A DNA stretch of 64,000 nt from Caldifarciminota bacterium (GTDB lineage Bacteria; Hydrothermota; Tepidihabitantia; SM23-42), in NCBI GenBank assembly GCA_027026255.1, contig JALVOT010000006.1, positions 1 to 64,000 on the forward strand, in the 5' to 3' direction. The notes below the pieces were generated by a model. The model ran no database searches. It had not been told where the DNA came from and saw only the letters and a program-made list of their open reading frames with translations. Each line of letters starts with the position of its first letter. The first letter of the stretch is position 1. Positions 13,730 to 56,983 of this stretch are shown here, in pieces. The position numbers were made by a program, and so were the translations under genes.

Positions 13730-13986
13730 CAGTCTTGCTCCTCCAGTATTTTTTTCAAGGCTTTGATTGCCTCTTTTTCATCTTCACCATCGCAGGTAAG
13801 CACCACCTCACTGCCTTTTTCGCAGGCAAGAGTCAGGATTCCCATAATACTTTTACCACTGACCCTGACCCCATCTTTCATTATTGTGACATCACTCTTA
13901 AATTTCTCCGCAAGTTTTACAAAACGCGAAGCCGGGAGTGCATGTAATCCATTTTTATTCAAGATAATAACTTTCTCGCTAATCAT
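13729..13986 (-). CDS. ptsH: Phosphocarrier protein HPr
   Basis: This 85-residue protein has the typical HPr length. His 15 sits in NKNGLHALPASRF, and Ser 46 in GKSIMGILTLAC is the site that HPr kinase would use. HPr carries phosphate from EI to the sugar-specific EIIA/EIIB. The gene lies 2 bases after the IID gene and shares one base with ptsI. No HPr kinase is present in the window. Confidence 0.95.
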   Translation of the reverse strand: MISEKVIILNKNGLHALPASRFVKLAEKFKSDVTIMKDGVRVSGKSIMGILTLACEKGSEVVLTCDGEDEKEAIKALKKILEEQD

Positions 13987-13988
13987 TT

Positions 13989-38760: not shown

Positions 38761-38788
38761 TTGACAATTAAAGCATAATGAATATAAT
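38761..38788 (+). promoter_or_regulatory. Promoter of the type I restriction-Gabija operon
   Basis: TTGACA (38761-38766), a 16-base spacer and TATAAT (38783-38788), both perfect. It points toward hsdR, whose start at 39017 is about 220 bases downstream, so the mRNA has a long leader with two hairpins. Confidence 0.75.
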
Positions 38789-39016: not shown

Positions 39017-41350
39017 ATGCTGTTGAGCGAAGCAGACACTAAGGCAAAGCTTATTGACCCTGGCCTCCACCGACGTGGCTGGACAGAAGACCTTATACGC
39101 CGCGAAGAGACCGAACGCGGAATTGATATTATCGATGGTAGGCCGAGACGGAGAGAGCGAGGAAGGATAGACTATCTCTTACGGGTGAGGGTCAACATCA
39201 ATGCTCAGCCTGTCGCTGTTGCCTTAATTGAAGCAAAGAAAAATATTGATCCGCCTGATAAGGGTCTTGAGCAGGCAAAGAAGTATGCCCGGCTGAATCA
39301 TGTTCCTTTTGTTTACTCCTCTAATGGTCATCTTTTTGTAGAATATGACGCAATTACAGGCAAAACTTCTGAACCCTCTCCTTTTGAAGAATTCCCCACC
39401 CCTCTTGAACTTCGCAAACGTTATGAAATGGAAATGGGCATTTCATTAGCACGCAAGAGCGCTAAACCGCTACTAATTCCTTACTCGGGAGGTGAAGCAA
39501 TACGAAGGTACTACCAAGATGCTGCTATTCGTGCTGCGTTGGAAAAGATCGCCACAGGCAAAAAGCGACTCCTTCTCTTTTTGGCTACCGGCTCAGGCAA
39601 AACTTTTATCGCGGTTCACCTTTTGAAAAAGATTGCAGATGCCGGCCAACTTCGCCGTGCCCTGTTTGTATGCGATAGGGATGAATTACGCACTCAAGCA
39701 CTTGGTGCGTTTCAAAATGTTTTCGGTTCCGATGCAGCAAAGGTAACAACATCTAATCCTCAAAAGAATGCCCGTATTTTGATTGCGACATATCAGACAC
39801 TCGATGTGGCTGGCGAAACTGAAGACGCCAGTTTTTTCCTCGAAAACTATCCTGAAAATTATTTCAGCCATATTATTATTGATGAGTGTCACCGATCTGC
39901 GTGGGGGAAGTGGAGTATCGTGCTTCGCAAAAATCCGGAAGCTATTCAGATTGGGCTCACAGCAACCCCGCGCAGTTTTGAAGGCGGAACAGAAGAGGAA
40001 CGTAAAGAAGACGAAGAAATTACAGCAAATAACCTTAAGTATTTCGGCGAGCCCATCTACGAATACGATATGGTTCAGGGTATAGAGGATGGCTATCTCC
40101 CTGCTTGCGAGATCATCAGGCGAGATGTCAATCTTGACGAAAGGGGTGTAAAACGGCAGGACATTGAGGTTTTAGGGGCAAGGAACGCCACTACCGGAGA
40201 GCCTATTCCTCCTGATGAGACCCGAGCGAAGTATGAGGCACCATCCTTCGAAGATATTATTCAACTGCCAGATAGGGTAAGGACGATGTGTCAAGACCTC
40301 TTTGATATGTTCCTCCAAACTGGTGGACCTCATCAAAAAACGGTTATCTTCTGCGCCCGGGATACCCATGCAGACAGAGTTGCAGCGCAGATGAACAACC
40401 TCTATGCAGACTGGTGTGCTAAAAATAGCTATAAGCGCCTTGAACCGTATGCTTTCAAATGCACAGCTTCAGTAGGTGGAAGCAAATACATTGCTGACCT
40501 GCGGGGTTCACAGCGAAGCCATTTCATCGCCACAACTGTTGATTTAATCACCACAGGAGTCGATGTACCACCACTCAAAAATGTTGTCTTTTTTAAATAT
40601 GTCCACTCCCCCATCGCCTTTCAACAGATGATGGGACGTGGTTCAAGGATCCATTTGCCCAGCAACAAATTGATGTTCCGTGTTTACGACTACACAAATG
40701 CAACCCGCCTTCTGGGGAAGGGATTTGAAAGCCGTTCTACACCAACCCGTGAACCTAAGGAACCTACTAAGGAAAGAAAAGAGAAGATAATTCGTGTTGA
40801 GGGTTTTGATGTCCATATCAATCCAGCCGGGACATATATCGTTACAAGAAAAGAGGGTCAATTGGGAATGGTCACGGTTGAGGAATACCGTCAGATGATA
40901 GCGTCTCGGCTAACGGAAGAAATTAAGACTGTTGATGCTTTTAGAAAATTCTGGATAGATCCCAGGAAACGAAGGGAGCTAATGGAGATTCTACCTGATG
41001 ATGGGCAGGGAATAAGATTGCTCCGGGAACTTACAAACCGCACGGATTATGACCTATACGATATTCTGGCGGAGATTGGATATGGGATAGCACCTAAGAA
41101 TCGGAAGGAACGTGCTTCAGCATTATTATATAAGCACCGCGAGTGGCTAAACGAATTTTCAGCAAAGGCCCGTGATACCTTGCTTGCCCTTGCAAGACAA
41201 TTTGAAAAAGGCGGAACAGAAGAATTGGAGAATCCCCACATCTTCGAGGCACCTGATGTGCTCAAAGCGGGTGGACTTTCTGCATTGAAGGACTTGGGTA
41301 AACCAGAAGATATTATAACCGAGGCCAAGAAAAGGTTATTTGCAGCATGA
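39017..41350 (+). CDS. hsdR: Type I restriction enzyme R subunit
   Basis: This 777-residue protein has an N-terminal PD-(D/E)xK nuclease: Asp 52 in GRIDYLLRV and Glu 72/Lys 74 in ALIEAKKN. A superfamily 2 helicase follows with Walker A LFLATGSGKTF (about 187-197), DECH (about 290) and the later motif QQMMGRGSR. It is the EcoEI-like short HsdR class. It cuts and translocates DNA together with HsdS and HsdM, which lie downstream but are separated by four other genes. Its stop overlaps the next start (ATGA). Confidence 0.92.
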   Translation: MLLSEADTKAKLIDPGLHRRGWTEDLIRREETERGIDIIDGRPRRRERGRIDYLLRVRVNINAQPVAVALIEAKKNIDPPDKGLEQAKKYARLNHVPFVYSSNGHLFVEYDAITGKTSEPSPFEEFPTPLELRKRYEMEMGISLARKSAKPLLIPYSGGEAIRRYYQDAAIRAALEKIATGKKRLLLFLATGSGKTFIAVHLLKKIADAGQLRRALFVCDRDELRTQALGAFQNVFGSDAAKVTTSNPQKNARILIATYQTLDVAGETEDASFFLENYPENYFSHIIIDECHRSAWGKWSIVLRKNPEAIQIGLTATPRSFEGGTEEERKEDEEITANNLKYFGEPIYEYDMVQGIEDGYLPACEIIRRDVNLDERGVKRQDIEVLGARNATTGEPIPPDETRAKYEAPSFEDIIQLPDRVRTMCQDLFDMFLQTGGPHQKTVIFCARDTHADRVAAQMNNLYADWCAKNSYKRLEPYAFKCTASVGGSKYIADLRGSQRSHFIATTVDLITTGVDVPPLKNVVFFKYVHSPIAFQQMMGRGSRIHLPSNKLMFRVYDYTNATRLLGKGFESRSTPTREPKEPTKERKEKIIRVEGFDVHINPAGTYIVTRKEGQLGMVTVEEYRQMIASRLTEEIKTVDAFRKFWIDPRKRRELMEILPDDGQGIRLLRELTNRTDYDLYDILAEIGYGIAPKNRKERASALLYKHREWLNEFSAKARDTLLALARQFEKGGTEELENPHIFEAPDVLKAGGLSALKDLGKPEDIITEAKKRLFAA

Positions 41351-42261
41351 ATTCAAAAAGTGAAATATTCAACTTCCTTGTAAAAAATGCGATCTATCCG
41401 ATGTGTAGCAAAAAGGGAAAGATTTTTCTCAGAAATACAAGAAAAATTCTGATAAATCAAGAAACAGAACGAGAGATAATTAAAAAACTGAATATCAAAA
41501 CGCCTCAGGACTGTGAACAAATAAGAAAAGAAATTAGGAAGCGTGCTGCTGAAAACCGGACAAATCGCCCTATAAAGGAATGGATAAAAGAAGAAAGACC
41601 AAGGGAGATGCTGGTAAAATACGGAGCCGATGCACTCTCCCTGTCTAAACTTCTGGCAATAATTTTAAGAACAGGAAAAGAGGGAGTCAGTGCTGAGGAG
41701 TTGGCAAGGAGACTGCTGAATAAATTCAAAACATTGAGAGAGATTGATTCAAGCAGTGTTTCTGAAATTTGTGAAACCGAAGGCATAGGAATTGCCAAAG
41801 CAGTCCAGATAAAGGCTGCAATGGAACTTGGCAAGAGGTTATTAAAAGAAAGGGCAGAGAAGACAAGAGGGATAAAAAAGGCTGATGATGTGGTTGAGTA
41901 TGTGGCTGAATACTATGGTCCTTACCTAAGGGATGCCAAGAAAGAATTCTTTAGCATTATTCTTTTAGATATAAAGAATAAACCGCTTCATAATATCGAG
42001 TTGAGCAAAGGTAGCATCAATCTAAGTGTTGTTGACCCAAAAGAAATTATAAAAGAGGCGACATTAAAGTCCGCTTCTTCAATTATACTTGTTCATAATC
42101 ATCCCTCAGGAGATACCGATCCATCAGATGAGGATATTAAATTAACCAATCGCATTATTGATGCCTGTGACCTTGTAGGGATAAGAGTATTGGACCACAT
42201 CATTATCGGCAAAAATGAGAGTGACTATTATAGCTTTGCAAGGGAAGGATTGATAGAATGA
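41347..42261 (+). CDS. RadC-like JAB-domain protein
   Basis: This 304-residue protein has an unusual ~70-residue N-terminal extension, then UPF0758/RadC features: RPREMLVKYGADALSLSKLL, a helix-hairpin-helix (ETEGIGIAKAVQIKAAMELG) and a JAB/MPN metal site HNHPSGDTDPSDED near residues 239-252. RadC-family proteins are common in mobile and restriction loci; the activity is unsettled despite the old DNA-repair name. It overlaps hsdR by 4 bases, so it belongs to the restriction operon. Confidence 0.88.
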   Translation: MNSKSEIFNFLVKNAIYPMCSKKGKIFLRNTRKILINQETEREIIKKLNIKTPQDCEQIRKEIRKRAAENRTNRPIKEWIKEERPREMLVKYGADALSLSKLLAIILRTGKEGVSAEELARRLLNKFKTLREIDSSSVSEICETEGIGIAKAVQIKAAMELGKRLLKERAEKTRGIKKADDVVEYVAEYYGPYLRDAKKEFFSIILLDIKNKPLHNIELSKGSINLSVVDPKEIIKEATLKSASSIILVHNHPSGDTDPSDEDIKLTNRIIDACDLVGIRVLDHIIIGKNESDYYSFAREGLIE

Positions 42262-42286
42262 AAATAGCATTTTATAGAGGTTGTTT

Positions 42287-43759
42287 ATGATTGTGAAAAA
42301 ATATAAAATATTTGTCAGTGGTGTCCAGGAAGAGCTTAAAGAAGAACGCTTTGCAATAAAGGAAATCGGAACCCAGAATATTCTATTAAAGAAATACTTT
42401 TCTGCCTTTCTTTTTGAAAACCTTCCAGCTAAAAGCAAATCTGCTGAAAAAGTTTATCTTAAAAAAGTCGCCGAGAGCGACATTCTGTTGCTGATTTTAG
42501 GAATGGAATATGGACAAATAGGTTCTGATGGCATTTCAGCCACTGAAAGAGAGTTTAGAAAAGCAATTGAGAAAAATTTAAAAATCCTGGTGTTTATTAA
42601 AAGTAATAATAATTCTAAAAGAGACAGAAGAGTTGTAAAACTCATAAAGGAAATAAAAAGTAAATACATTTATAAAAAATTCAAAAATGTTCCTCATTTA
42701 AAGGATTGTGTTTATAACAGTCTTGTAGAATTTTTGGAAGAGGAAGGTGTCCTTGCTAAATTTCCCTTTGATTCGAGTATATGTGAAGAAGCAGTGTATA
42801 GAGACCTGAATGAAAAACTTGTAAGGGATTTTTTAAATACCAGAGCAGTGAAACTCAAGGTAGAGGTTCCCAGGATATCTATGAAAGAGTTTCTGCAAAA
42901 AACCATCAGGGTAGTAAGGGAAAAAGATGGGTTTCTTAAGCCCACAAATACGGCAATATTGTTTTTTTGTGACCATCCATATGACTTCATACCACAGAGT
43001 ATAGTAAAAATTGCCCGCTTTAAAGGAAAAACTCGCATTGAATTTATTGATTCTCAGGAATTAAAAGGACCGATCTATAAAATTCTTGACGATGTAGAAA
43101 AATTTTTCAAACGGAATACTCGTTTAGCTAATAAAATTGTAGAGTTTAAAAGAGTGGAGATTCCAGAGTATCCCTTTAAAGCTATAAGAGAAGCAGTAGT
43201 CAATGCCATAGCACACAGGGATTATAACCGAATAGGTTCTAATATTCAGATAGACATCTTTGACGATAGAGTAGAAGTTACAAGTCCTGGTGGTCTTCTT
43301 GCTGGGTTAGACATAAAGCATCTGGAAGGAATACATGAAACAAGAAATAGAAGAATCTGTAAAATCTTTCATGAAACAAAGGATATGGAAACATATGGGA
43401 CTGGAATTGCAAAGATGAAGCATTGGATGCAGGAACATAGCTTAAAACCACCTGTTTTAACTCAGAAAGGTAATTTCTTTAAGGTAACCTTCTATGGTCC
43501 AGGTGATAAAATTTTGGATTTAGTTTCCGATATACCTAAAGAAAGACAAACGGATTTAAAAAAATTAGGATTGAATAAAAGACAGATAGAAGCCTTAAGG
43601 TTAATGGTTAATGAAGGAAAATCTTTGACAAATAGAGAGTACAGAAAGTTATTTGAAGTAAGCAATCAGACCTTCGTCCGAGATATGAGGTTATTGTTAA
43701 AGCTGGGTTTTGTCACTATTGAAGGTAAGGGACGAGCTTTAAGCTATAAGGCTGTTTGA
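42287..43759 (+). CDS. DUF4062 / GHKL-type ATP-binding protein with winged helix
   Basis: ATG 42287 is preferred (AGAGG 6 bases upstream), giving 490 residues. The N-terminal ~100 residues (YKIFVSGVQEELKEERFAIK, SDILLLILGMEYGQIG) match DUF4062, a TIR/Toll-like-fold sensor. The middle (REAVVNAIAHRDY, DIFDDRVEVTSPGGL, YGTGI) is the RecG-C-like/Schlafen-associated HATPase_c_4 domain. The C-terminal ~70 residues form a winged helix. Such proteins recur in type I restriction loci. It may be a sensor or regulator (inference). Confidence 0.75.
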   Translation: MIVKKYKIFVSGVQEELKEERFAIKEIGTQNILLKKYFSAFLFENLPAKSKSAEKVYLKKVAESDILLLILGMEYGQIGSDGISATEREFRKAIEKNLKILVFIKSNNNSKRDRRVVKLIKEIKSKYIYKKFKNVPHLKDCVYNSLVEFLEEEGVLAKFPFDSSICEEAVYRDLNEKLVRDFLNTRAVKLKVEVPRISMKEFLQKTIRVVREKDGFLKPTNTAILFFCDHPYDFIPQSIVKIARFKGKTRIEFIDSQELKGPIYKILDDVEKFFKRNTRLANKIVEFKRVEIPEYPFKAIREAVVNAIAHRDYNRIGSNIQIDIFDDRVEVTSPGGLLAGLDIKHLEGIHETRNRRICKIFHETKDMETYGTGIAKMKHWMQEHSLKPPVLTQKGNFFKVTFYGPGDKILDLVSDIPKERQTDLKKLGLNKRQIEALRLMVNEGKSLTNREYRKLFEVSNQTFVRDMRLLLKLGFVTIEGKGRALSYKAV

Positions 43760-43761
43760 TG

Positions 43762-43848
43762 ATGTCACGAAATGCACTGAAATGTCATGAAAAATGTCAC
43801 AGAAAAAATGTCATGAAAAGGGATAAAATGTCATGAAAAATGTCACGA
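43762..43848 (+). repeat. Imperfect tandem repeats before and inside the hsdS start
   Basis: ATGTCATGA/ATGTCACGA-type units occur at about 43762, 43782, 43794, 43808, 43828 and 43840. They are separated by A-rich runs, and related ATGTCCCT units follow at about 43875 and 43887. The unit contains two overlapping start codons in different frames. Gain or loss of units could shift the hsdS reading frame or start. Confidence 0.7.
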
Positions 43849-45146
43849 AAAAGTTGCCCCCTAAAAACCCTAATATGTCCCTAAAAATGTCCCTAAAAAA
43901 TGCCAAAAATCTTAATCCCCAACTCCCACCTGACTGGAGATGGGTGAGGCTGGGGGAGGTATGCAAGATAAACCCTCGGCGTCCGGAAGGCTTCAATCGT
44001 TCTCCAGATGCACCAACTACATTTGTTCCAATGGCTACGGTAGATGAAAAATTGGGGACTATTACCAACCCAGAAATTGTTCCTTACTCGAAAGTTTCAA
44101 AAGGGTATACTTATTTTGAAGAGAACGATGTCCTTTTTGCCAAAATTACCCCATGCATGCAGAATGGAAAGCATGTGATAGCGAAAAATCTAATTGACAG
44201 GATAGGTTTTGGGACAACAGAGTTTCATGTTTTAAGGCCCAATAAAGAAATATTGTCAGAATGGATTCACTTTTTTATTAGACAACCTCTCTTTTTACAG
44301 GAAGCAACGGCATATTTTACAGGTGCTGTTGGTCAACAAAGAGTACCTCAAGAATTTTTAGAAAATTATATAATTCCTCTCCCTCCTCTACCTGTCCAGC
44401 GTCGTATTGTTGCTAAGATTCAAGAATTAATGCAAGAGGTGGAGCGTGCCCGAAAGTCTTGCGAAAAACAACTTGAGACAGCCAAAGCCCTTACCGCCGC
44501 ATACCTCCGCCAAGTCTTCGAAAGCGAAGAGGCAAAGAAGTGGGAGAGGAAGAGACTGGAGGAGATGTTAGATATTATTGAAAGCGGTAGCCGTCCAAAA
44601 GGGGGAGTGTTTGAAATAAAAGAAGGTATCCCATCAATCGGAGCTGAACATTTAAATCCTTTCGGGGGTTTCCTTTTTAATAATATGAGATTTATACCCA
44701 AAGAATTTTACGAGAAAATGAAAAAAGGCAAAGTTCAAAAAGGTGATGTGCTGGTCGTTAAAGACGGTGCAACAACCGGTAAAGTTTCCTATGTAGATGA
44801 TGATTTTCCTTACGGAATTGCTGCTATAAACGAACATATCTTTAGGCTAAGAGGCAAAGAATTTCTAACCCAGGAGTTTCTATTTTGGTTTTTATATTCT
44901 CCTTTAGGACAAATCCAAATTCAGCAAGAATTCCATGGAGCTGCTCAAGGTGGTATAAACCAGCGGTTTGTAAATGGAGTATATATTCCTCTCCCCCCTC
45001 TTCCTACTCAGCGTCGCATCGCCTCTGAACTTAAAGAGAAAATGGCTTATGTTGAAAAACTCCGTATTTCTATTGAAAAGCAGTTAGAAGCGATAAACGC
45101 CCTACCGCAGGCAATTTTAAGGAAGGCATTTAGGGGGGAATTATGA
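43833..45146 (+). CDS. hsdS: Type I restriction enzyme specificity subunit
   Basis: This 437-residue protein has two target-recognition domains, each followed by a helical conserved region. TRD1 starts at DWRWVRLGEVCKINPRRPEG and ends with PLPPLPVQRRIVAKIQELMQ. TRD2 ends with PLPPLPTQRRIASELKEKMA and KQLEAINALPQAILRKAFRG. The subunit selects a bipartite DNA target. The first ~30 residues (rich in Lys, Asn and Met) are encoded by repeats and are not part of the family fold. It overlaps the OLD nuclease gene by 4 bases. Confidence 0.92.
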   Translation: MKNVTKKLPPKNPNMSLKMSLKNAKNLNPQLPPDWRWVRLGEVCKINPRRPEGFNRSPDAPTTFVPMATVDEKLGTITNPEIVPYSKVSKGYTYFEENDVLFAKITPCMQNGKHVIAKNLIDRIGFGTTEFHVLRPNKEILSEWIHFFIRQPLFLQEATAYFTGAVGQQRVPQEFLENYIIPLPPLPVQRRIVAKIQELMQEVERARKSCEKQLETAKALTAAYLRQVFESEEAKKWERKRLEEMLDIIESGSRPKGGVFEIKEGIPSIGAEHLNPFGGFLFNNMRFIPKEFYEKMKKGKVQKGDVLVVKDGATTGKVSYVDDDFPYGIAAINEHIFRLRGKEFLTQEFLFWFLYSPLGQIQIQQEFHGAAQGGINQRFVNGVYIPLPPLPTQRRIASELKEKMAYVEKLRISIEKQLEAINALPQAILRKAFRGEL

Positions 45147-47209
45147 GAATGTCTCGTGCCTATATTGATAATTTCAGGAATCTTAGAAATTTCACAATGG
45201 AACTTTCCGAACTTGAAATATTAGTAGGTGAAAATAATATTGGAAAAACCAATATACTGCTTGCAATTAGTAAAATTTTATCTTTTGATCGAAGAAGAGT
45301 TTATTTTGATAATGATGACTTTGCTAACCCTGAAAAGCCCATAATAATTGAGTTAGTATTCACTGATTTCTCTACGCCCGAAGAGGAGGCAATTTTCTTT
45401 GATCATGAAGGGTTCAAGAACCCTGAAATGAATGAAGTAGTAATAAGGTTAAAGGCTGAATGGGATGAAAAGGAAAGGGACATCAATGTTTCCCTAACAT
45501 TTGTAAGAGAAGATTTGCCTGAAGATGAACAAGAAATAAAAGAGTTCTCCTGGCATTTTAGGAGATATATCCCCTATTACTATATTCCTGCACATAGAGA
45601 TATTGAAAAGGAGATATCCTCCAGAAGAGGAGATCTATTTGAGATATTACAATCATTTACTCCCTATCAACTCATGCCGATTCAGGCTTTAAAGAAAAGG
45701 ACTTTGGCAAAGATAGATGACTTTTTAAAAGAAGCAGAAAAAAGTGATTATAATGACCTCGTATCAGAGTTAACTGTAGTTAAAACTACAGTAGAAAAAG
45801 TGGAAGAGGTTACAAAAGAGAAAATTGAGGAGATTATAACTAAAATCGAGGCTATTAAAGGCAATATTGAAAGCAATGAAAAAATCGATGAATCATCACT
45901 TTTTACCAAGATTTTAAGCCAGCTCAAAGATCTTATTATAGTCCTTCAGAATAGGCTCTCTATTCAAAGTAGTCTAAGTTCTCTTAAAGAAGAATTTAAG
46001 AACCTGTATGGATTAGAAAATATTCAAAATAGCTTAAATGAATTATTAGCTGAGTTTTTAGATAGTGAAGAACTAACTTTAGATACTATTTCTGCAAAAG
46101 ATGAAGATTTTCTGAGGCAATTAAGCATCGGGATAGGCAACTATTCTATATTAAGACATGGAAGTGGATATCAAAGCCTCCTAAGCCTTATTCTAAAATT
46201 GTTCAAAACCATCTACCAAATAATTAAAAGAGAGGAAGTCGAATTTAAAAGCTTTATAGTAGCAATAGAAGAACCCGAAACGCACCTACACCCTCACCTA
46301 CAAAGACATCTTATTAAAACCCTAAAAAATATTCAGCTTAAATTTTCAGACGAAGGTATATCCCTTCAATTTGTAATATCTACTCATTCCCCTTTTATAA
46401 TAACACCACTTTCTTTTGATTCTTTAACATTTCTCCGTCCTGGTAGAGATACCTCACCAAACGCAATAAAGATAAATAAAAAAGAATTCGCTCAAGAAAT
46501 TGTTGATAAACTTAATCTGACTAATGAAAAGGCTAAACAAAAGAAAATGAATCAAATAAGTCGGTGGTTAGATCATTTGTTTTATCATTCTCCAGAAATG
46601 TTTTTCAGTAAATGTGTCATAGTAGGAGAGGGAGAGACTGAACAAGGAGCTATCCCGATATTTGCTGAGAAAATTAGAAAAAATTTAGATCAATCTGGAA
46701 TTTCTTTCTTGAATGGTGAAGGGGATAGTCTAATTTATCCTGTAAGACTACTATCAGCATTAAAAACTTCATGGGTGTTAGTTGTTGATAAAGATAAAGC
46801 TGAAATTCTCAAATCTTTGGAATCAGTTTCTGAGGAAAATATTTTTGTTACAAACACAAAAGCATTTGAAACAGAAATTCTTTCAACTGCGCCTTTAGAA
46901 AAAATACTTCTAGCTTTGGATGAGAAATCTATTCCTGAAAAGAATAGAGATAGAATAGCTGATTTAATAGGAGATTTTCAAAATCTCAAAGGAAAGGAAA
47001 TTGAATCTTTACAAGATGTATTGGCTTATTTGGAAGAAAAAGAGATTGATAAATTTAAAAAGGATTTTATCTTAAAATGGATGAAAGCTGAAAAAGGATT
47101 ATCTTTTGGCAGGATTTTAGCTGAACATCTTGAACCTAATGAGATACCAACAGTTTTTGTGGAAGCTATTATAAAGGCTGGAGAGATGTCAAGGGAGTAT
47201 AGAGAGTGA
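45143..47209 (+). CDS. Gabija-like GajA: OLD-family ATPase-TOPRIM nuclease
   Basis: This 688-residue protein has an N-terminal ABC-type ATPase (Walker A VGENNIGKTNILLA at about 29-42, EEPETHLHPHLQRHLIKTL signature about 375, switch ISTHSPF). A C-terminal TOPRIM nuclease follows (VGEGETEQGAIPIF about 495, VVDKDKA about 550). A long coiled-coil insert lies between. OLD plus a UvrD helicase next to it defines Gabija, a phage-defence nuclease controlled by nucleotides. It is longer than the best-known GajA (~580). It overlaps hsdS and the helicase gene by 4 bases each. Confidence 0.8.
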   Translation: MRMSRAYIDNFRNLRNFTMELSELEILVGENNIGKTNILLAISKILSFDRRRVYFDNDDFANPEKPIIIELVFTDFSTPEEEAIFFDHEGFKNPEMNEVVIRLKAEWDEKERDINVSLTFVREDLPEDEQEIKEFSWHFRRYIPYYYIPAHRDIEKEISSRRGDLFEILQSFTPYQLMPIQALKKRTLAKIDDFLKEAEKSDYNDLVSELTVVKTTVEKVEEVTKEKIEEIITKIEAIKGNIESNEKIDESSLFTKILSQLKDLIIVLQNRLSIQSSLSSLKEEFKNLYGLENIQNSLNELLAEFLDSEELTLDTISAKDEDFLRQLSIGIGNYSILRHGSGYQSLLSLILKLFKTIYQIIKREEVEFKSFIVAIEEPETHLHPHLQRHLIKTLKNIQLKFSDEGISLQFVISTHSPFIITPLSFDSLTFLRPGRDTSPNAIKINKKEFAQEIVDKLNLTNEKAKQKKMNQISRWLDHLFYHSPEMFFSKCVIVGEGETEQGAIPIFAEKIRKNLDQSGISFLNGEGDSLIYPVRLLSALKTSWVLVVDKDKAEILKSLESVSEENIFVTNTKAFETEILSTAPLEKILLALDEKSIPEKNRDRIADLIGDFQNLKGKEIESLQDVLAYLEEKEIDKFKKDFILKWMKAEKGLSFGRILAEHLEPNEIPTVFVEAIIKAGEMSREYRE

Positions 47210-49041
47210 AACAGAACAGAATTGTGCTTGATAAAGAGCAGAAGAAAGCTGTCTATGCACCTATAGATCAGTCTTTAATTGTTCTTGCACCTCCAGGATG
47301 TGGAAAGACCTTAATTATGGCAAAACGAATAGAATGCCTAATTAAAATAGGTGCCATTACGCCCCCATTTAAAATTTTAGGATTAACCTTCACTAATGCT
47401 GCTGCAAATGAGATGAAAGATAGGGTAACAAGTGAAGTTCCTGAAGCAGAAGGCATTGTTTATATTACAAACTTTCATTCTTTCTCTTATTCTGTGTTAA
47501 GGGCATATGGTAATGTTGTTGATATATCAAGAAAATTTACTGTGATAGGTGAAATTGAGAAAGAGGATTTCCTATTAAGGATTTTCAGTAAATATGAAAA
47601 AAGCATTAAAGAGATTACTGAGCTTCCTCCAGAAGATAGATGGAAACAACTTCAAAATAACGAAATTTGGAATAGGTATAAGGATTGGAATATAGAAAGA
47701 CTTTTAAAAAGTAATAAGGTATATATGGATGGTGAATATGATGAATTATTTGAAAAGATAAAGAAAGAATATCAAATTGAGTTAGGCAAAAACGATTATT
47801 TGGATTTTGACCATATTCTTTGGTACACTTATAACCTTTTAAAGAATAATTCCTCAATCCTTGAATACTATCGCGCTACTTTTAGATACGTTTTAGTAGA
47901 TGAATTTCAGGATACTAATTCATTACAATTTAGAATACTTTCTCTACTAACCTCTAATTATCAGGATTCTACAAGATACCCACCTGCAAAAGTATTTATT
48001 TTAGCTGACCCAGATCAAGCTATATATGAATTTCAAGGAGCAACACCTGAGAACATTAAGGTAGCTAAGAAAATTTTCCGCTGTGAAGTGATAGAACTAT
48101 ATAAAGACTATAGATTTTCTTCAGAGGGAATAAAATTGCTAAAAAATGCTATTTCGTCTTATATACGAAATGGATATATTAGTGATATTACAATAAGCTC
48201 AACGAATGATAAACCCAGTTTTGTTGCCTTAAATAGTATCGCCGAAGAAGCAAATTATATTTTGAATAAGGTTAAAAGATTCCAGAGTGATAATATCTCA
48301 CTCCATGAGATAGCCATTATTGCATTTCCTCAATATAGGTTAAACGAAGTAAAAAGATTACTCGATCAAGAGAACATTAATAATATTTTTGTTCCTGATT
48401 TTAGATCCGGGAATATTGAGAGAAATTATAGAAAGTTATTTAAAGGCATTAGTAATATTGCAAAGAAAAAATCCAGTGGTTATCTATACTCTGCTTTTGA
48501 AGGAGTATGTGAAAAAGAGAATTTTGATATAGAAAATGATGAGGTACTTAAGATACTATGGAAAGTGGCTAAAAGCTATGACGGAGACCAGTTCAAGGCA
48601 AAATCCCTTTGGGAAAAGAATCAAATGTTTGTAAATGAGGTACTTTTAGAGATTAACTGGGGTGAAGTGCTAAGAGAAAGAGTCAAAAATAAAGTATTTC
48701 TTTCAACAATTCATGGTGTAAAAGGTTTGCAATTCGAAGTCATTATAATCTGTGGACTTGAACAGTATTCTTTCCCTAATTGGCGTATTTGCAATCCGTG
48801 CTATAGGAATTCTATAAAACCTGACTACCTTAAAAAAGAATTGGTTAAGAATTTAAAAATATTTTACGTTGGTATCTCACGAGCAAAAAAATATCTATAT
48901 ATGACAAGTTCTTTAAGCAGCAATTATGGGAGTTATAGACCTGTGACATGCATATTGGAGCCCTTTGCAGAAATGCTCGATTTAAATTTAAACAATGGTA
49001 GATTCTGTCCCAATTCGCGTGTCTTATATGGAGGAAAGTAA
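47206..49041 (+). CDS. Gabija-like GajB: UvrD/Rep-family helicase
   Basis: This 611-residue superfamily 1A helicase starts with GTG, overlapping the OLD gene (GTGA). Motifs in order are Walker A LAPPGCGKTLIMAKRI (about 27), VLVDEFQDTNSLQF (about 228), ADPDQAIYEFQGA, STIHGVKGLQFEVIII and YVGISRAKKYLYM. It pairs with the upstream OLD nuclease to form a Gabija-like module. Codon use is strongly AT-rich compared with the neighbouring hsdM, so the pair may have been inserted separately. Confidence 0.82.
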   Translation: MKQNRIVLDKEQKKAVYAPIDQSLIVLAPPGCGKTLIMAKRIECLIKIGAITPPFKILGLTFTNAAANEMKDRVTSEVPEAEGIVYITNFHSFSYSVLRAYGNVVDISRKFTVIGEIEKEDFLLRIFSKYEKSIKEITELPPEDRWKQLQNNEIWNRYKDWNIERLLKSNKVYMDGEYDELFEKIKKEYQIELGKNDYLDFDHILWYTYNLLKNNSSILEYYRATFRYVLVDEFQDTNSLQFRILSLLTSNYQDSTRYPPAKVFILADPDQAIYEFQGATPENIKVAKKIFRCEVIELYKDYRFSSEGIKLLKNAISSYIRNGYISDITISSTNDKPSFVALNSIAEEANYILNKVKRFQSDNISLHEIAIIAFPQYRLNEVKRLLDQENINNIFVPDFRSGNIERNYRKLFKGISNIAKKKSSGYLYSAFEGVCEKENFDIENDEVLKILWKVAKSYDGDQFKAKSLWEKNQMFVNEVLLEINWGEVLRERVKNKVFLSTIHGVKGLQFEVIIICGLEQYSFPNWRICNPCYRNSIKPDYLKKELVKNLKIFYVGISRAKKYLYMTSSLSSNYGSYRPVTCILEPFAEMLDLNLNNGRFCPNSRVLYGGK

Positions 49042-49043
49042 TT

Positions 49044-50552
49044 ATGTCTAAACAGAATCCTCATAAAATCACTACTCCACAGTCGCTGAATACCTATATT
49101 AAAGGTATCTGCGATATTATGCGACGCTCGGGTAGGGCTGGTGCCCTTCAGTATGTTCCTGAACTTACTTGGATGCTCTTCCTCCGCATCCTTGATGAAC
49201 GAGAGGAGAAGGAGGCTGAACAAGCAAAGGCAGTTGGGGTTGAGTCCAGATTTTCGTTGAGTTATCCCTATCGTTGGCGGGACTGGGCTGCGCCAGATGG
49301 AAAAAAACGAAAAGAACTTCAGGAAGGAACTTTGGGCGGATTTATGAGTTTTGTTAATGGTGAACTCATACCTTACCTCAGAAGCCTTAAAGATAGACCA
49401 GGTGTTTCCCCTCGTCAGAAGGTTATTAGCCAAGTCTTCTCAGCCATTGAGAGAACAGGTATAGATACTGAACGCAATCTTCTGGATATTCTGGATAAGA
49501 TTCACAACCTTTCCCTCGAAGAGGTTGATGAAACTCACATGTTCCCTATTTCTCAGGTTTATGAAGGGCTACTTCAGGAGATGGGCGAGAAGAACAATGA
49601 CGGTGGACAGTTCTTCACGCCAAGAGAAGTAATCAGGGTGATGGTAAAGGTGATTGACCCCGAAATCGGTGAAACAGTCTATGACCCCTGCTGTGGAACC
49701 GGAGGATTTCTGGCTCAGGCATATCAACATATGAAACAGAAGGTGAAAACAGCGGATGATATTACGGTCCTCAAAACTAGAACCTTTTATGGAAGGGAGA
49801 AAGAAAATCTGATTTATCCAATTGTCCTGGCAAATCTTGTCCTCCAAGAGATAGATGAGCCACATATCTGGCATGGGAATACGCTGACAGAGATGGAGGT
49901 TTATGGAGGGCTCTTCTCAGGTGCACCAGCACTTTTTGATGTCGTACTTACAAATCCTCCCTTCGGCGGTAAAGAGAGAAAGGATGCCCAGACCCGTTTT
50001 GCCTATAAGACCAGGGCTACCCAGGTTCTGTTCCTCCAGCATGTGATAGATAGCCTAAAAGAAGGTGGAAGATGTGGTATTGTGATGGATGAGGGTGTTC
50101 TCTTTCGAACAAATGAGAAGGCTTTTGTCCAGACCAAGCGTAAACTTCTAAATGAGTGTAACCTGTGGTGTATCGTCAGCCTTCCACCGAAGGTCTTTGT
50201 GAATGCCGGGGCGGCAAGCAAGACCAACCTTCTATTTTTCACCAAAGGAAAGACAACAAAAGAGATCTGGTATTATGACCTATCTGATCTACATATAACC
50301 AAAAAGCAACCTCTAACCCTAAAACACTTTGAGGAATTCTTCAAGTTGTTTCCCAAAAGGACAATAAGCAAGCGTTCCTGGAAGGTATCAATAGAAGAGA
50401 TTGAGGCCAAAAATTTCGATCTCAAAGCTGTCAATCCTAATCGAAAGGAACAAGAAGATAAAAGGACACCCAAAGACCTGATCCAGATTATCGAAAAAGA
50501 ATCAGCAGAAATCGCGAAGGTTTTGAAAACCTTGAAAGATAAGGGGCTATAA
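49044..50552 (+). CDS. hsdM: Type I restriction-modification DNA methyltransferase
   Basis: This 502-residue protein has the N-terminal helical HsdM domain (about 10-130), SAM motif I YDPCCGTGGFLAQAYQHM (about 213-230) and motif IV LTNPPFGGKER (about 307-317). It is an N6-adenine methyltransferase. HsdM together with HsdS protects host DNA. It begins 2 bases after the helicase gene, so the Gabija-like pair lies inside the hsd operon. Confidence 0.95.
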   Translation: MSKQNPHKITTPQSLNTYIKGICDIMRRSGRAGALQYVPELTWMLFLRILDEREEKEAEQAKAVGVESRFSLSYPYRWRDWAAPDGKKRKELQEGTLGGFMSFVNGELIPYLRSLKDRPGVSPRQKVISQVFSAIERTGIDTERNLLDILDKIHNLSLEEVDETHMFPISQVYEGLLQEMGEKNNDGGQFFTPREVIRVMVKVIDPEIGETVYDPCCGTGGFLAQAYQHMKQKVKTADDITVLKTRTFYGREKENLIYPIVLANLVLQEIDEPHIWHGNTLTEMEVYGGLFSGAPALFDVVLTNPPFGGKERKDAQTRFAYKTRATQVLFLQHVIDSLKEGGRCGIVMDEGVLFRTNEKAFVQTKRKLLNECNLWCIVSLPPKVFVNAGAASKTNLLFFTKGKTTKEIWYYDLSDLHITKKQPLTLKHFEEFFKLFPKRTISKRSWKVSIEEIEAKNFDLKAVNPNRKEQEDKRTPKDLIQIIEKESAEIAKVLKTLKDKGL

Positions 50553-50619
50553 ATGTGACACAGGAGGTAAATGATGGCAGTGTGGTTAGTAAAAGAAAAA
50601 ACATTAAAAAGGAGGAATA

Positions 50620-50964
50620 ATGGAAGAAGATAGATTACGAAGGCATAAAGAGGATTTCATTCGTGCCATACATACAAAGAAAAAAATTCGTATAAAGTTT
50701 TATTCTAAGGAGGATTCTGGTTCGTTGGAGCGTAAATGTGCTCCTATGGACTACGGTCCGAGCCGCCGTGCCAGAGAGCAAAAAGATAAGTTTCATCTAT
50801 GGGATTACGAAAGTGATACTGGTGCACATACATTGAGCTTGAATCCCGAACAGATTCAAGAACTCGAAGTATTGGATGAGTCGTTTGATCCAGGCGAATT
50901 CGTAACTTGGAACACCAAAGAGAAACCGTGGTTTATTTCTAGAAATTGGGGGATCTATTCATAG
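50620..50964 (+). CDS. Small WYL-like protein, unknown
   Basis: This 114-residue protein is preceded by AAGGAGGAAT. The sequence (KKKIRIKFYSKEDSGSLERK, then a proline-rich loop and HLWDYESDTGAHTLSLNPEQ, then IQELEVLDESFDPGEF) follows the strand pattern of a WYL domain without its DNA-binding domain. It could bind a ligand to control the neighbouring restriction genes; this is inference. A 20-codon frame just upstream (MMAVWLVKEKTLKRRNNGRR) may be the stub of a lost nuclease gene. Confidence 0.5.
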   Translation: MEEDRLRRHKEDFIRAIHTKKKIRIKFYSKEDSGSLERKCAPMDYGPSRRAREQKDKFHLWDYESDTGAHTLSLNPEQIQELEVLDESFDPGEFVTWNTKEKPWFISRNWGIYS

Positions 50965-52599: not shown

Positions 52600-52845
52600 T
52601 CAAATAAATTTTTGCATGTAAGTTAATATTTTGGAATACAGAGAATAAGGCTTGATCCTAAAATTCGATATCTTGACAATTTATAGATTGAGATTATAAT
52701 GGATTAATAATATTAAAACTTATTAATGCCTAATGGCCACCAAATAGGCCAGTAAAGTTACTGATAGGAGATGAATATGATGAGATTTAATGGTAATCTG
52801 ATTTACAAACTCTACGGCTTGTCAGATGAGGAGATAAAAATTGTA
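52600..52845 (+). repeat. Promoter/small-ORF module, copy 1
   Basis: This ~246-base segment is similar along its whole length to 58015-58259. Shared in order are TCAAAT...CATGTAAGTTAAT, AGAGAATAAG, CTTGACAATTTATAGATT with a -10 box, TTAAAACTTATTAAT and ATGGCCACCAAATAGGCCAG plus TAAAGT (perfect, with a TGGCC/GGCCA hairpin at 52734-52751). A small ORF with matching residues follows. It occupies the gap between the barrel gene and the AIPR gene. Confidence 0.85.
52673..52700 (+). promoter_or_regulatory. Promoter of the small ORF-AIPR operon
   Basis: TTGACA (52673-52678), a 16-base spacer and TATAAT (52695-52700). Both boxes are perfect and conserved in the second module copy (TATACT there). A conserved hairpin follows about 35 bases downstream. 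Confidence 0.8.
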
Positions 52846-52879: not shown

Positions 52880-54949
52880 ATGGCAAATATAGGATTTCAA
52901 AAAAGATTAAAATCTGAAATTGAAAAGATATCACAAGAGTTTGGTTGTCAATTAAATATTGCTTTCATTCGTTCAATATTAGAAGCAATCTTTAATATGC
53001 ATGAGTTCGAAATCGATGAGGCTATTACTGACGGAGGGATGGATAAGGGGATAGATGCGATATTTGAACAAGAGAATGAAGAGGGTGAAAATATTTTATA
53101 TGTAGTTCAATCAAAATATTTTAATCAAAATTACGATAAGACAATAGATGAAAACTCAAAAAATTTAATAATTCATGCTGTTGAGAACTATATTTTAGGA
53201 GATTATCCATTAAATAATTTGAATAAAATATTGAGAAAAAAAGTAGAAAATTATAGAAATAGATTAGTTGAAGGAGAAATTGATAGCATAAGTATTGTTT
53301 TTACTACTAATGGACAAAGGCCAGGTGATAATATTATCTCAGAATTGGAAAAATTTAAAGAAGATAATCCTCAAATTGTCTATGAAATATATGCTGAGGA
53401 TGATTTATCTGCATTATTTATACCGCCGTCAGCCAGAATGGTGAAAAAAATCGAACTCAAAATTATAAAAGAAATTGGTAGCGGTGATAAAACTTTTCTA
53501 AATATGCCAGATATAGATGTAATGAGCGGTAAAATGATCCGAGTTGATGTATATGAATTAGCAAAAGTAATAGAAAAAAATCCGAACATTTTTAATGCCA
53601 ATGTTCGGGCCTATCAGTCGATAAGGCATAAGGTCAATAAACAAATTGCTGAAACTTTAAGAGATCCTGAGCAGTTGAAACAGTTTATTTATCTGAATAA
53701 TGGAATTACTCTATTATGTGACGATTTTGAAGTTAAGCCTGGCAACGTAATTATTAAGTTAAAAAATCCTTCAATAATTAATGGATGTCAAACAGGAAAT
53801 ACTATTTTTGAAGTATACAAAGAAGGGAAAATACAACCCAACTGCGGATTTGTTTTGGTGAGAATAATAAAGTCGAAGGACGTAGAAATTAAAAAAAGGA
53901 TAATTCTAGCTACCAATACTCAGATAGCCGTTAAAAGTAGAGATTTGATTAGTGAAGATAAAATCCAGAAGGAGTTAGAACAGCAATTTTTAAATTTGGG
54001 TTATTACTATGATCGTAAAAAAAATATGCATAGAGATAAACCAAAAAATAAAGTTATTGACTTAGAGAAAGCCGCACAAGCATATTTAGCTTTATATTTG
54101 GAAAAACCGGCAGAAGCCAAGAATAAAAAAAGTGAAATTTATAAAAGTTATTATGAACAAATTTTTAACAAAGATCTTACTGCTGAGCAATTATTGATCG
54201 CTTATAAATTATATTTGGATATTAATTCACGCGTTCGTGAATTAAGAAAAAATGTGTCTCCAAAAAGAAAAAGTGTCTTAGGTAATAGCATAATGCATTT
54301 ATTACCGCTATATAGAGAATGGATACTCAAGCCGGATAATATGGATTTGCCTGTGATAGAAAAGGATCTATCTCAAGTAATGTTTCCAAATAGTAAGATT
54401 GATAAGGTTATACGAAAAATGGAAAAGATAATAGGTATTTTATCCGAAAGAAGAGATTTCAATCCTCAATACTTCTTCAAAAGTGCCAATTCTTTAAATA
54501 AGATTAAAAATGACAGAACCGCAAAAGTAGATTATCAAATTCTTCTCACTAAAGAAAATAGGCGAAGATACAGGGATTTAAGATATTATAAGCCAGAAAA
54601 ATTTTCTGTTGATGGTAATACCTTTTTAAAAATAAAACATTGGAACGATCTTTTTGTATGGATGATGGATAAATATTCTGAACAATTTGATGTAACAGAA
54701 GGTAATATAAATTTCGTTGATTCGGGCTCTAGGGTGCTTCTGCTAAAAAATCCTGACACGGAGGAAAAAAAGATAAGGAAGCAAATTAAAAATGGATTAT
54801 GGCTGTTGACCAATTTTAGTTCTAAAAAAATAAGTGGATTTTGTTTTGAATTTGCTGAGAAATTAAATTTTGATTTATGCATAAGATTACGACCGACAAG
54901 ATTTAGGCTCCAAAAAAAATATAAAAAACAAAGAAGACACAAACATTGA
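52880..54949 (+). CDS. AIPR-family abortive-infection protein with N-terminal nuclease domain
   Basis: This 689-residue protein has a PD-(D/E)xK-like domain (GGMDKGIDAIFEQE at about 52-65 with Asp 59, then ILYVVQSKYF with Gln 77/Lys 79). The AIPR domain follows: LKQFIYLNNGITLLCDDFEV at about 270-290 and NPSIINGCQTGNTIFEVYKE at about 297-316. AIPR proteins are phage-defence factors, probably DNases. AAGGAGG lies upstream. Codon use is very AT-rich. Confidence 0.85.
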   Translation: MANIGFQKRLKSEIEKISQEFGCQLNIAFIRSILEAIFNMHEFEIDEAITDGGMDKGIDAIFEQENEEGENILYVVQSKYFNQNYDKTIDENSKNLIIHAVENYILGDYPLNNLNKILRKKVENYRNRLVEGEIDSISIVFTTNGQRPGDNIISELEKFKEDNPQIVYEIYAEDDLSALFIPPSARMVKKIELKIIKEIGSGDKTFLNMPDIDVMSGKMIRVDVYELAKVIEKNPNIFNANVRAYQSIRHKVNKQIAETLRDPEQLKQFIYLNNGITLLCDDFEVKPGNVIIKLKNPSIINGCQTGNTIFEVYKEGKIQPNCGFVLVRIIKSKDVEIKKRIILATNTQIAVKSRDLISEDKIQKELEQQFLNLGYYYDRKKNMHRDKPKNKVIDLEKAAQAYLALYLEKPAEAKNKKSEIYKSYYEQIFNKDLTAEQLLIAYKLYLDINSRVRELRKNVSPKRKSVLGNSIMHLLPLYREWILKPDNMDLPVIEKDLSQVMFPNSKIDKVIRKMEKIIGILSERRDFNPQYFFKSANSLNKIKNDRTAKVDYQILLTKENRRRYRDLRYYKPEKFSVDGNTFLKIKHWNDLFVWMMDKYSEQFDVTEGNINFVDSGSRVLLLKNPDTEEKKIRKQIKNGLWLLTNFSSKKISGFCFEFAEKLNFDLCIRLRPTRFRLQKKYKKQRRHKH

Positions 54950-55111: not shown

Positions 55112-56983
55112 GTGATTGATTCATTATATAAAAAATTATATGATATTAACCTTTTAAAACGAGCGTGGCATTTAGCTAGAAGTGATACCCGAACTGATTT
55201 CATCCAAGATTCTTTTAGATATGAGGATTTTGCTTTTAATTTAGATAAAAATCTACAGGCTATTTCAACGGCTCTGAAAGCGGAACGATATCACCCAAAC
55301 TCCCTTCTTTATATTGATGTACCTAAATCTACATTATCAGTGAGACCCGGTAGTATAACTTCTATTGAAGATAGAATTGTTCTTTTTGCGATTACTATGT
55401 TAATTGCTCCCAAGTTAGATAGAAAATTACCAGAAACAGTTTATTCATATCGCCTAAAAGAAGGATTTGATAACGAGTCGCTTTTCAAGGATTTAGAGAT
55501 TCTTAAATTCCCTTTTCTAAAGAGGACGACAATACACCGGCAAATAGATATTTTAGAACCTTGGTATGGACAATGGCCCAAGTTCATTGAAAAAGCTGTC
55601 TATGCATTTGAAAGAAAAGGATATAAATTCTTAACTTTGTCTGACATCTCTGCCTATTTTGAAAATATTAATTTGCGCATACTACGAGATAATTTGTTAA
55701 AGTATTTACCTAAGGAGCAAAAAATAATAAATCTGTTATATCTCCTTCTAGAATATTGGACATGGCCAACTATACATGGTCTTTCAATAGAAAGAGGTAT
55801 TCCTCAAGGTAATGATGTAAGTAGTTTTATAGGTAACATTTATTTATTACCTCTTGATGAAGAATTTATAAAATTTAGCAGAAAGAAAGATATTCAATAT
55901 TTTCGGTATATGGATGATGTTAAAATATTTTCAAAAGAAGAAAATATTGCAAGGGAAGTTATATTTGTAATGAATAATATTCTCAGAAGGTTACATCTTA
56001 ATATTCAAGGTACTAAAACAATAATTTTAGAAGGAGATGAGATACGCGATGAGCTAATAGATAATAGATTGGATGAAGTAAACAAGGTAATAAAAGATAT
56101 TCAAAAAAAATCAAAATTGCTTACAAACAATAAGAGACAAGATTATCTTAGTAAACTTAAAAAAGAATATAAGAAAATTAAGAAAAAGAATAAAATTATC
56201 CAAGGTAAAGATTTACGACTTTATCAGAGGCTTATCACGGGTTTTACACTTTTGGATTCTTCTTACATGGTTAATAATTTATTAAAACAACTGCCTAAAA
56301 ATCCAGATGCAAGGCTCCTTAGGAAATCAGTTTTATATCTTAAAAAATTCCCAAGGAGCAGCGAGAAAATAGAAAATAGTTTGCTGCAATTCCTGGAGTC
56401 CTCTGTTAACCTTTTCCCTTATCAAGAGGCTCGTATGATCGAATTATTGCGATATTTAAAAAATATATCTCCAAGAAGCAGTTCCTATGCAAACAAGTGT
56501 TTGAGATTAAAAAAGAAACATTGGTATGTCAAAGTCCAATCTGCATTGCTTTTATCTAGTTTAACCTTGTCAAAAAAGCCGTTAAAAACTTTGAAAAGAA
56601 TGTATGAGAATGAGAATAATATTGAAGTGAAGAGAGCCCTTGTTGTATGTTTATGTCAGTTACAAAAGGATGAATTAGATGAGTTTTTAAAAACTCTCGT
56701 ATTTGAGAATGATAAAAAGTTATCTTCCTTGGGTAAGATGTTATTCTATATCTACACTAATAGAAATAATACCGCCGTCAAAGAGATATCGAATATATTC
56801 CGCCATTTCAGTGAAGAATTTATATTGGACAGATATTACAAGATTGAAGTTATGAAATATTGTAATAACGGTGAAGTAAGAAAAAAATTATTAAAAAGAC
56901 TAAAAGCAGTCAGAAAAATAATTAAGAGAGAACATCTTAAAAGAAAAGTTAATAAAACTATTAAGTTTCTGGATGAACCGTAG
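55112..56983 (+). CDS. Defence-type reverse transcriptase with HEAT-like helical tail
   Basis: This 623-residue protein starts with GTG. RT motifs are TLSDISAYFENI (catalytic Asp 178), ERGIPQGNDVSSFIGNIYLL (about 227-246) and FRYMDDVKIF (YMDD 266-269). The N-terminal part (SVRPGSITSIEDRIVLFAIT, then ETVYSYRL) fits the abortive-infection/unknown-group RTs. Residues ~340-623 are helical and HEAT-like, as in the alpha-Rep tails of those RTs. No maturase, HNH, or retron NAxxH/VTG motif is seen. It probably acts in phage defence by DNA synthesis; the subgroup is unassigned. Confidence 0.8.
   Translation: MIDSLYKKLYDINLLKRAWHLARSDTRTDFIQDSFRYEDFAFNLDKNLQAISTALKAERYHPNSLLYIDVPKSTLSVRPGSITSIEDRIVLFAITMLIAPKLDRKLPETVYSYRLKEGFDNESLFKDLEILKFPFLKRTTIHRQIDILEPWYGQWPKFIEKAVYAFERKGYKFLTLSDISAYFENINLRILRDNLLKYLPKEQKIINLLYLLLEYWTWPTIHGLSIERGIPQGNDVSSFIGNIYLLPLDEEFIKFSRKKDIQYFRYMDDVKIFSKEENIAREVIFVMNNILRRLHLNIQGTKTIILEGDEIRDELIDNRLDEVNKVIKDIQKKSKLLTNNKRQDYLSKLKKEYKKIKKKNKIIQGKDLRLYQRLITGFTLLDSSYMVNNLLKQLPKNPDARLLRKSVLYLKKFPRSSEKIENSLLQFLESSVNLFPYQEARMIELLRYLKNISPRSSSYANKCLRLKKKHWYVKVQSALLLSSLTLSKKPLKTLKRMYENENNIEVKRALVVCLCQLQKDELDEFLKTLVFENDKKLSSLGKMLFYIYTNRNNTAVKEISNIFRHFSEEFILDRYYKIEVMKYCNNGEVRKKLLKRLKAVRKIIKREHLKRKVNKTIKFLDEP

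Follow-up and report, generated by a model that had tools for sequence, protein, structure and literature searches.

The window analysed here is a stretch of 64,000 nucleotides from a Caldifarciminota bacterium (contig JALVOT010000006.1, assembly GCA_027026255.1, a genome of 18 contigs and 2.1 Mb); its positions 39017 to 50964 hold a type I restriction-modification (R-M) operon in which an OLD-family nuclease gene and a UvrD-like helicase gene stand between hsdS and hsdM. An earlier note on this DNA had proposed a Gabija-like OLD/UvrD pair inside a type I operon, and gene order, domains and PADLOC models bear this out. The seven genes that it named are all open, lie head to tail on the + strand in the order claimed, and have the domains claimed for them.

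The first gene, hsdR (39017..41350), encodes an EcoAI/FtnUII-like restriction subunit of 777 amino acids (aa) with ResIII, SWI2_SNF2 and EcoEI_R_C domains in Pfam. It scores 310 bits with PADLOC REase_I and 469 bits with the NCBIfam EcoAI/FtnUII R profile (under the cut-off of 550), and its E72-A73-K74 is unchanged in all eight aligned sequences. It is followed by a radC-like gene (41347..42261; 304 aa with a JAB domain; Pfam RadC, 138 bits, plus UPF0758_N), which was labelled from Pfam alone, the other genes of the operon being labelled from Pfam and PADLOC together. Next come a gene for a DUF4062-GHKL-winged-helix protein that is a candidate TIR-like NADase (42281..43759; 492 aa from a TTG start; DUF4062 and HATPase_c_4), and hsdS (43833..45146), whose 437-aa specificity subunit has two target-recognition halves (two Methylase_S domains; PADLOC Specificity_I, 298 bits). 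The OLD gene (45143..47209; 688 aa; AAA_15 plus OLD-like TOPRIM; PADLOC GajA 171 bits, Old 124 bits) and uvrD (47206..49041; 611 aa from a GTG start; UvrD-helicase 208 bits; PADLOC GajB 260 bits) form the GajA-like and GajB-like cargo. Last is hsdM (49044..50552), for a 502-aa modification subunit (N6_Mtase 223 bits, HsdM_N; PADLOC MTase_I 586 bits) with an NPPF motif unchanged in four of four aligned sequences. HsdR, HsdS and HsdM are encoded together with their motifs kept, as would be expected of a type I R-M system.

The genes are tightly packed. The earlier note had given overlaps of 2–4 bases or gaps of at most about 90; the gaps are inside that limit, but the overlaps are all of 4 base pairs (bp), at hsdR/radC, hsdS/OLD and OLD/uvrD. 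The gaps are of 19 bp between radC and the DUF4062 gene (counted from the listed TTG start, and larger from a likelier internal ATG or GTG), 73 bp between the latter and hsdS, 2 bp between uvrD and hsdM, and 67 bp between hsdM and a 114-aa open reading frame (ORF; 50620..50964, + strand). This ORF, at the end of the examined range, has no match in Pfam, PADLOC or NCBIfam.

A single transcript from before hsdR through hsdM is likely. A promoter-like site (38761..38788, + strand), TTGACA-16-TATAAT, matches the consensus at 12 of 12 positions and lies 228 bp before the hsdR ATG; it is the likely start of operon transcription. Since the 43 promoter-like sites in the region are close to the 41.3 expected by chance, and such sites are consensus matches and not proof of transcription, this reading relies on the perfect match and its place. 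A second site, on the - strand, points at the TetR-like gene on the opposite side. Terminator-like sites in the region are weak (14 found against 10.4 expected, standard deviation 3.0), and the scan gave no convincing terminator inside the operon.

The interval between hsdS and hsdM in related operons

The hsdR-radC-DUF4062-hsdS-hsdM frame recurs across phyla. HsdR and HsdM of the recurring frame are 72–80% identical to those of the window in relatives that include members of other phyla, and a RadC-like protein (66–74% identical) stands at the same place in L032, L033, L034, L035, L036 and L069 (L and G numbers denote our loci and genomes). DUF4062 proteins with 74% identity occur in G103 and G095, two genomes of the window's own phylum, whose loci L032 and L033 read hsdR-radC-DUF4062-hsdS-ORF-hsdM (HsdR 75%, RadC 66% and HsdM 80% identical to those of the window); an ORF of 355 or 223 aa takes the place of OLD and uvrD, and L032 has an extra 227-aa ORF between the DUF4062 gene and hsdS. 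In L035, a Cloacimonadota contig, the interval is empty: hsdR-radC-DUF4062 is followed by hsdS (11673-12983), which overlaps hsdM (12980-14479) by 4 bp. In L035, the window and L069, hsdS ends in the same way, with ATGA at the stop, and the ATG starts hsdM in L035 and OLD in the window.

Because L035 joins the same hsdS C-terminus directly to hsdM through the ATGA overlap, the proposal of the earlier note that OLD and uvrD were inserted between hsdS and hsdM is supported. A complete second system lies inside the first, in the same direction, and is absent from a relative. The note had also pointed to base composition. OLD and uvrD (32.1% and 31.9% guanine plus cytosine) are indeed more AT-rich than hsdM (44.0%) and hsdR (46.1%), but this is a weak sign of insertion because the DUF4062 gene of the conserved frame (33.5%) and the downstream genes (31.5% and 29.3%) are about equally AT-rich, and as proof of insertion we set it aside. 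A direct-repeat search of 44900-49300 gave, among the largest 20 of 21 repeat families, no pair at both borders of OLD/uvrD.

To see what else the interval can hold, we searched 390 genomes with an HsdM alignment, blind to cargo (threshold E ≤ 1e-140), and inspected all matching loci. Twelve genomes, the window's included, have a member of this HsdM family. In ten of the 12 loci (again counting the window) the interval holds an ORF no shorter than 199 aa, and in seven of the ten the cargo has domains that can be recognised. The same nested order was found in one of the 11 others, L069 (genome G233, of another phylum), which has OLD and UvrD plus a nucleotidyltransferase and a HEPN gene. Elsewhere the interval contains OLD alone (L061), a DUF3644/PDC-S19 gene (L064), a Fic gene (L066, where hsdR looks broken), a DUF4268/PDC-S11 gene (L067), or ORFs with no clear domain (L032, L033, L063); it is empty in L065 and L068. 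In L062 (5161-10780) it is filled by an HTH/Panacea gene, an ORF weakly resembling DUF4062 and a gene whose 1283-aa product is AAA/STAND-like, perhaps a defence system without a name as yet. Even the close sisters L032 and L033 have unlike cargo (the 355-aa and 223-aa ORFs). The arrangement in the window is not due to chance: its frame recurs in other phyla, and a second genome has OLD and UvrD in the same place. In the phyla around G233, G175 and G273 (2, 3 and 5 genomes), no HsdM matches were found beyond those three genomes.

An HsdM tree of 19 rows (the census plus plasmids, viral contigs and L035) has ten filled intervals, and the filled ones cluster. It omits L036 (contig ending after hsdS and a PDC-S35 gene), L034 and L040 (ending in hsdS), L043 and L038 (ending before hsdS), other DUF4062 loci with no hsdM in view, L074 (the same as L072), and L076, L078, L079 and L080 (hsdS fragmentary or out of view). 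In L070, a Carboxydocella plasmid (CP028515.1), the interval is empty and a typical GajA/GajB pair lies about 7 kb further on, adjoining an integrase gene. In L027 (genome G073), whose Hsd genes belong to an unrelated family, a lone OLD gene with no helicase separates hsdM from hsdS, and the gene ends overlap.

A DUF4062 scan of genome contigs gave 19 loci, nine of which include hsdR or hsdS from this frame, whole or partial: L032–L036, L038 (L022 reversed), L040, L043 and L050 (hsdS fragments). The remaining ten showed no Hsd protein of the frame next to the DUF4062 gene. In L036, a Caldisericum contig, the gene after hsdS matches PADLOC PDC-S35 and the contig ends before hsdM; in L040 and L043, Nitrospirota contigs, the DUF4062 gene directly follows hsdR with no radC. 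ORF6N-domain genes lie shortly before hsdR in L033 (5604-6056) and beside the DUF4062 gene in L038 (4153-4695).

The OLD/UvrD pair and the DUF4062 protein

By architecture and PADLOC models the pair is Gabija-like in kind but divergent. As in Gabija, an OLD-type ABC ATPase with a TOPRIM domain (AAA_15 plus OLD-like_TOPRIM) is directly followed by a UvrD-like helicase, here with a 4-bp overlap, and GajA and GajB are the best PADLOC models. The OLD residues G29, N31, G34, K35, E377-P-E379, H415, E496 and D549, which include those of the Walker and TOPRIM motifs, are invariant in 26 of 26 sequences and D551 nearly so; in UvrD the residues of Walker A and VDEFQD are invariant in four of four. What sets the pair apart from Gabija is its lower PADLOC scores (171 bits for GajA and 260 for GajB, against 864 and 658 for the Carboxydocella plasmid pair), a 688-aa OLD protein with a helical insert, and a tree position outside the main UvrD-linked clade, which is not significant. 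The AlphaFold2 model of OLD (26 sequences; mean predicted local distance difference test score, pLDDT, 76.6; low confidence in the insert) has GajA structures as its top Foldseek matches. It aligns full-length about equally well with GajA 8x5i (Z 22.4, root-mean-square deviation [rmsd] 3.9, 437 residues aligned) and OLD 6p74 (Z 22.7, rmsd 3.9, 386 aligned), so structure does not tell GajA from OLD. PrrC was considered as an identity for the cargo ATPase and rejected: its C-terminal part is TOPRIM, and Pfam gave no HEPN or anticodon nuclease match.

For the OLD tree, 70 of 80 viral OLD loci were full-length and 67 remained after removal of identical rows, making 74 proteins with seven others; a more careful tree used 43 of these. 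In both trees the window protein groups outside the main UvrD-linked clade, although an approximately unbiased (AU) test does not reject placement inside it (p 0.151). The window helicase groups with other OLD-linked helicases (98/98). Close relatives of this OLD protein are scarce in our sets: no relative was found among 44 pattern stretches in genome contigs, plasmid proteins are 25–28% identical among the matches listed, four of 150 genomes (the window's included) have matches at E ≤ 1e-15, and of 371 genomes searched with PADLOC PDLC00085, two have a match at E ≤ 1e-30, the window's own and G073.

Was the pair inserted once or twice? L069 reads hsdR, radC, three small ORFs, hsdS, OLD, UvrD, nucleotidyltransferase, HEPN, hsdM, with a spacer of about 480 bp ahead of OLD. 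A full DUF4062 gene is missing; the likeness is confined to one of the small ORFs, which resembles the end of that protein. HsdR (77%), RadC (74%), HsdM (73%) and to a lesser degree HsdS (56%) of the two loci are alike, whereas OLD and UvrD are 24% and 25% identical, and the window-L069 path lengths of 4.11 (OLD) and 4.31 (UvrD) are about 14-fold that of HsdM (0.30). These distances favour separate acquisition or replacement of the pair. Yet the HsdM proteins of the two loci are sisters (95/94), the helicases of the window, L069, L083 and L084 form one clade (98/98), and a single OLD clade of window and L069 is not rejected by the AU test (p 0.503). A single ancestral insertion before the two loci split, after which the pair diverged very fast, is a serious possibility, though one we put at rather less than even; it would be compatible with the carrier-and-cargo reading given below. 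After the trees and the AU test, the 24% OLD identity was dropped as proof of independent insertions.

DUF4062 domains have been described as TIR-like NADases in phage defence, the bacterial system being named Swarozyc (2026 preprint, PMC13174449). The window protein matches the sequence of the KpSwz TIR/DUF4062 structure 10wc (E 2.4e-9), and its Glu89, a candidate catalytic residue in a matching S-x-T-E place, lines up with the T-E of KpSwz and is the same in 18 of 18 relatives. It probably corresponds to the E97 of PMC13174449, whose residue numbers are not those of the structure chain. In an AlphaFold2 model (17 sequences, mean pLDDT 81.6), residues 5-155 align about equally with the SARM1 TIR domain (Z 13.4, rmsd 3.1, 131 aligned) and with DNPH1 (Z 13.9, rmsd 2.7, 133 aligned), and nucleotide N-hydrolase activity may be an alternative. 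Residues 148-492 match DIP2311 (3lmm; Z 20.9, 288 aligned) with an rmsd of 19.2, so high that domain orientation may differ. In the HATPase part, E304, N308, D329, G337, G373 and G375 are invariant among relatives and presumably have the usual GHKL roles.

The earlier note had suggested that this protein is a sensor linking the two systems. Its distribution and the TIR-like reading speak against this, and as a candidate role we rejected it: none of the three relatives that have the DUF4062 gene and a fully visible interval (L032, L033 and L035) has OLD/UvrD there, and L069, which lacks a complete DUF4062 gene, does have the pair. From sequence and model, a TIR-like effector under an ATP-binding module (GHKL/winged-helix) is the better reading.

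Interpretation, known parallels and neighbouring genes

We think it probable that the type I operon (R, S and M) is a carrier whose hsdS-hsdM interval serves as a cargo slot, occupied here by the divergent Gabija-like pair, and that the defence layers are independent and share expression. Gene order, intact motifs, the empty slot of L035 and the different cargo of relatives are all read directly from the sequences. Marking of self and cutting of unmarked DNA by Hsd enzymes is established for the family. Transcription would start ahead of hsdR and run through hsdM; the Hsd enzyme would methylate host DNA and cut unmodified DNA; OLD and UvrD, by their likeness to Gabija, would form a second, parallel layer directed at linear phage DNA; and the TIR-like DUF4062 protein would be a separate last-resort layer, with abortive NAD+ destruction. 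For its part, Gabija is reported to block circularisation of linear DNA that is free of RecBCD (PMC12407980). That the layers are most likely independent is suggested by the exchangeable cargo and by the existence of the R-S-M frame with none; it is also suggested by TgvAB, a system in a Vibrio cholerae type I operon, because its cluster reportedly protects alike when HsdR is inactivated (PMC11411939).

Three observations weigh against this carrier-and-cargo reading. The 4-bp overlaps would suit tight functional coupling too. Three of the ten cargoes in the census (L032, L033 and L063) have no known domain, and their defence role is only putative. In the HsdM tree, nine of the 19 slots are empty, which means that use of the slot is not general in the family.

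The main rival is that the pair is coupled to the restriction enzyme: HsdR would cut or move on unmodified DNA, UvrD load on the ends and OLD act so that there is no rejoining, or else the pair would fire when a phage blocks Hsd. This would fit the 4-bp overlaps, and also a report that Gabija is activated by the anti-restriction protein Ocr (PMC12255303). It would further fit the surroundings of OLD/UvrD pairs on viral contigs (54 pairs, 44 distinct), where all four nearest to the window's have same-direction restriction-type genes upstream: a type III mod-res operon (L084), hsdS-hsdR (L168 and L193) and Mrr-helicase (L083). Of the 40 other pairs, four have restriction genes on either side (four of four against four of 40, Fisher p 0.0005, or 0.017 without L083 and L084). 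We take this association only as a lead, however, because the reference proteins came partly from L083 and L084, which were themselves counted, L168 and L193 are close kin, and the flanks were unequal (5 or 8 kb). In addition, the L069 pair has been kept despite its spacer, and relatives carry cargo of other, unrelated types, which shows that the slot can do without OLD/UvrD. We regard coupling as unlikely. Similarly unlikely is the more speculative idea that a divergent OLD/UvrD lineage has specialised in accompanying ATP-dependent restriction enzymes of types I and III: the enzyme would make or expose ends, and the pair would prevent repair or circularisation. The operon would then encode a single coupled machine, with the TIR-like NADase as its fail-safe, and not two neighbours. 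Plain defence-island clustering, with repeated chance insertion and no special slot, would agree with the AIPR/AbiU and reverse transcriptase genes that continue past the operon. We consider it very unlikely, since insertions recur between the same two genes with direction kept (10 of 12 loci in the cargo-blind set), whereas in the 5 or 8 kb of flank covered, none of the 44 distinct viral-contig pairs has restriction genes on both sides of it as an operon around the pair.

Two further arrangements on viral contigs may be recorded. In L084/L244 (3300029823_000290) OLD and a UvrD of the window's helicase clade lie about 30 bp behind a type III mod-res operon, with IS21 genes after them. In L116 and L283, OLD/UvrD pairs stand directly behind hsd operons (R-S-M and M-S-R), at the tail and not inside.

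Embedding of accessory genes in type I operons is already known, and the arrangement in the window is a new example of this habit, not a system of a new kind. The RptR island of enteropathogenic E. coli has a complete system, DarTG2, embedded in a type I operon; its cargo is other, its slot is hsdS-hsdR (a potential recombination hotspot, according to the authors), and a repressor, RptR, stands at its head (PMC12255303). TgvAB, of Vibrio pathogenicity island 2, is likewise a two-gene system embedded in a type I operon, but of type IV, GmrSD-like (PMC11411939). Other accessory genes in hsd operons are PrrC in EcoprrI (PMC3874165), an anticodon nuclease held by the Hsd complex where the window's OLD has a TOPRIM nuclease domain instead, and RloA/RloB in hsd loci of Campylobacter jejuni, for which the available part of the source gives no inferred function (PMC2928727). 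Swarozyc (KpSwz), which has an auxiliary domain and is activated by phage portal, shares with the window a DUF4062 domain with Glu at the TIR catalytic place (PMC13174449). The window's version is joined to a DIP2311-like GHKL ATPase with a winged helix, and its gene lies inside a type I operon. Defence genes inside defence operons are also the basis of the PADLOC PDC/HEC sets ('guilt by embedding'; Payne et al. 2024 preprint, as described in citing papers), and cargo of the window's relatives matches PDC-S11, S19 and S35. In Streptococcus thermophilus, Gabija and R-M genes share an island, with no nesting seen in the part of the source available (PMC11514479). A Gabija pair between hsd genes was not met in the paper listings and excerpts examined, which did not cover the likeliest source, the Payne et al. 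2024 survey.

What emerges is a type I operon family that occurs in several phyla so far little studied and whose hsdS-hsdM slot is reloaded with different anti-phage genes; in the window, one such operon unites a TIR-like DUF4062 protein with a Gabija-like pair. The slot is a place to seek new defence genes, three of its cargoes having no known domain, and offers a natural test of whether embedded systems share expression only or work together.

Short tandem repeats (43762..43899, + strand) extend over the hsdS start, with one 12-bp unit in about six copies and another in about two (Tandem Repeats Finder scores 72 and 50); a change in copy number could move the hsdS start or frame. Downstream of the operon come an AIPR/AbiU-like gene (52880-54949; PADLOC AbiU, 220 bits) and a UG21-group reverse transcriptase gene (55112-56983; 460 bits), so the operon opens a larger defence island. 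Another promoter-like site with a perfect consensus (52673-52700) lies near the AIPR/AbiU-like gene.

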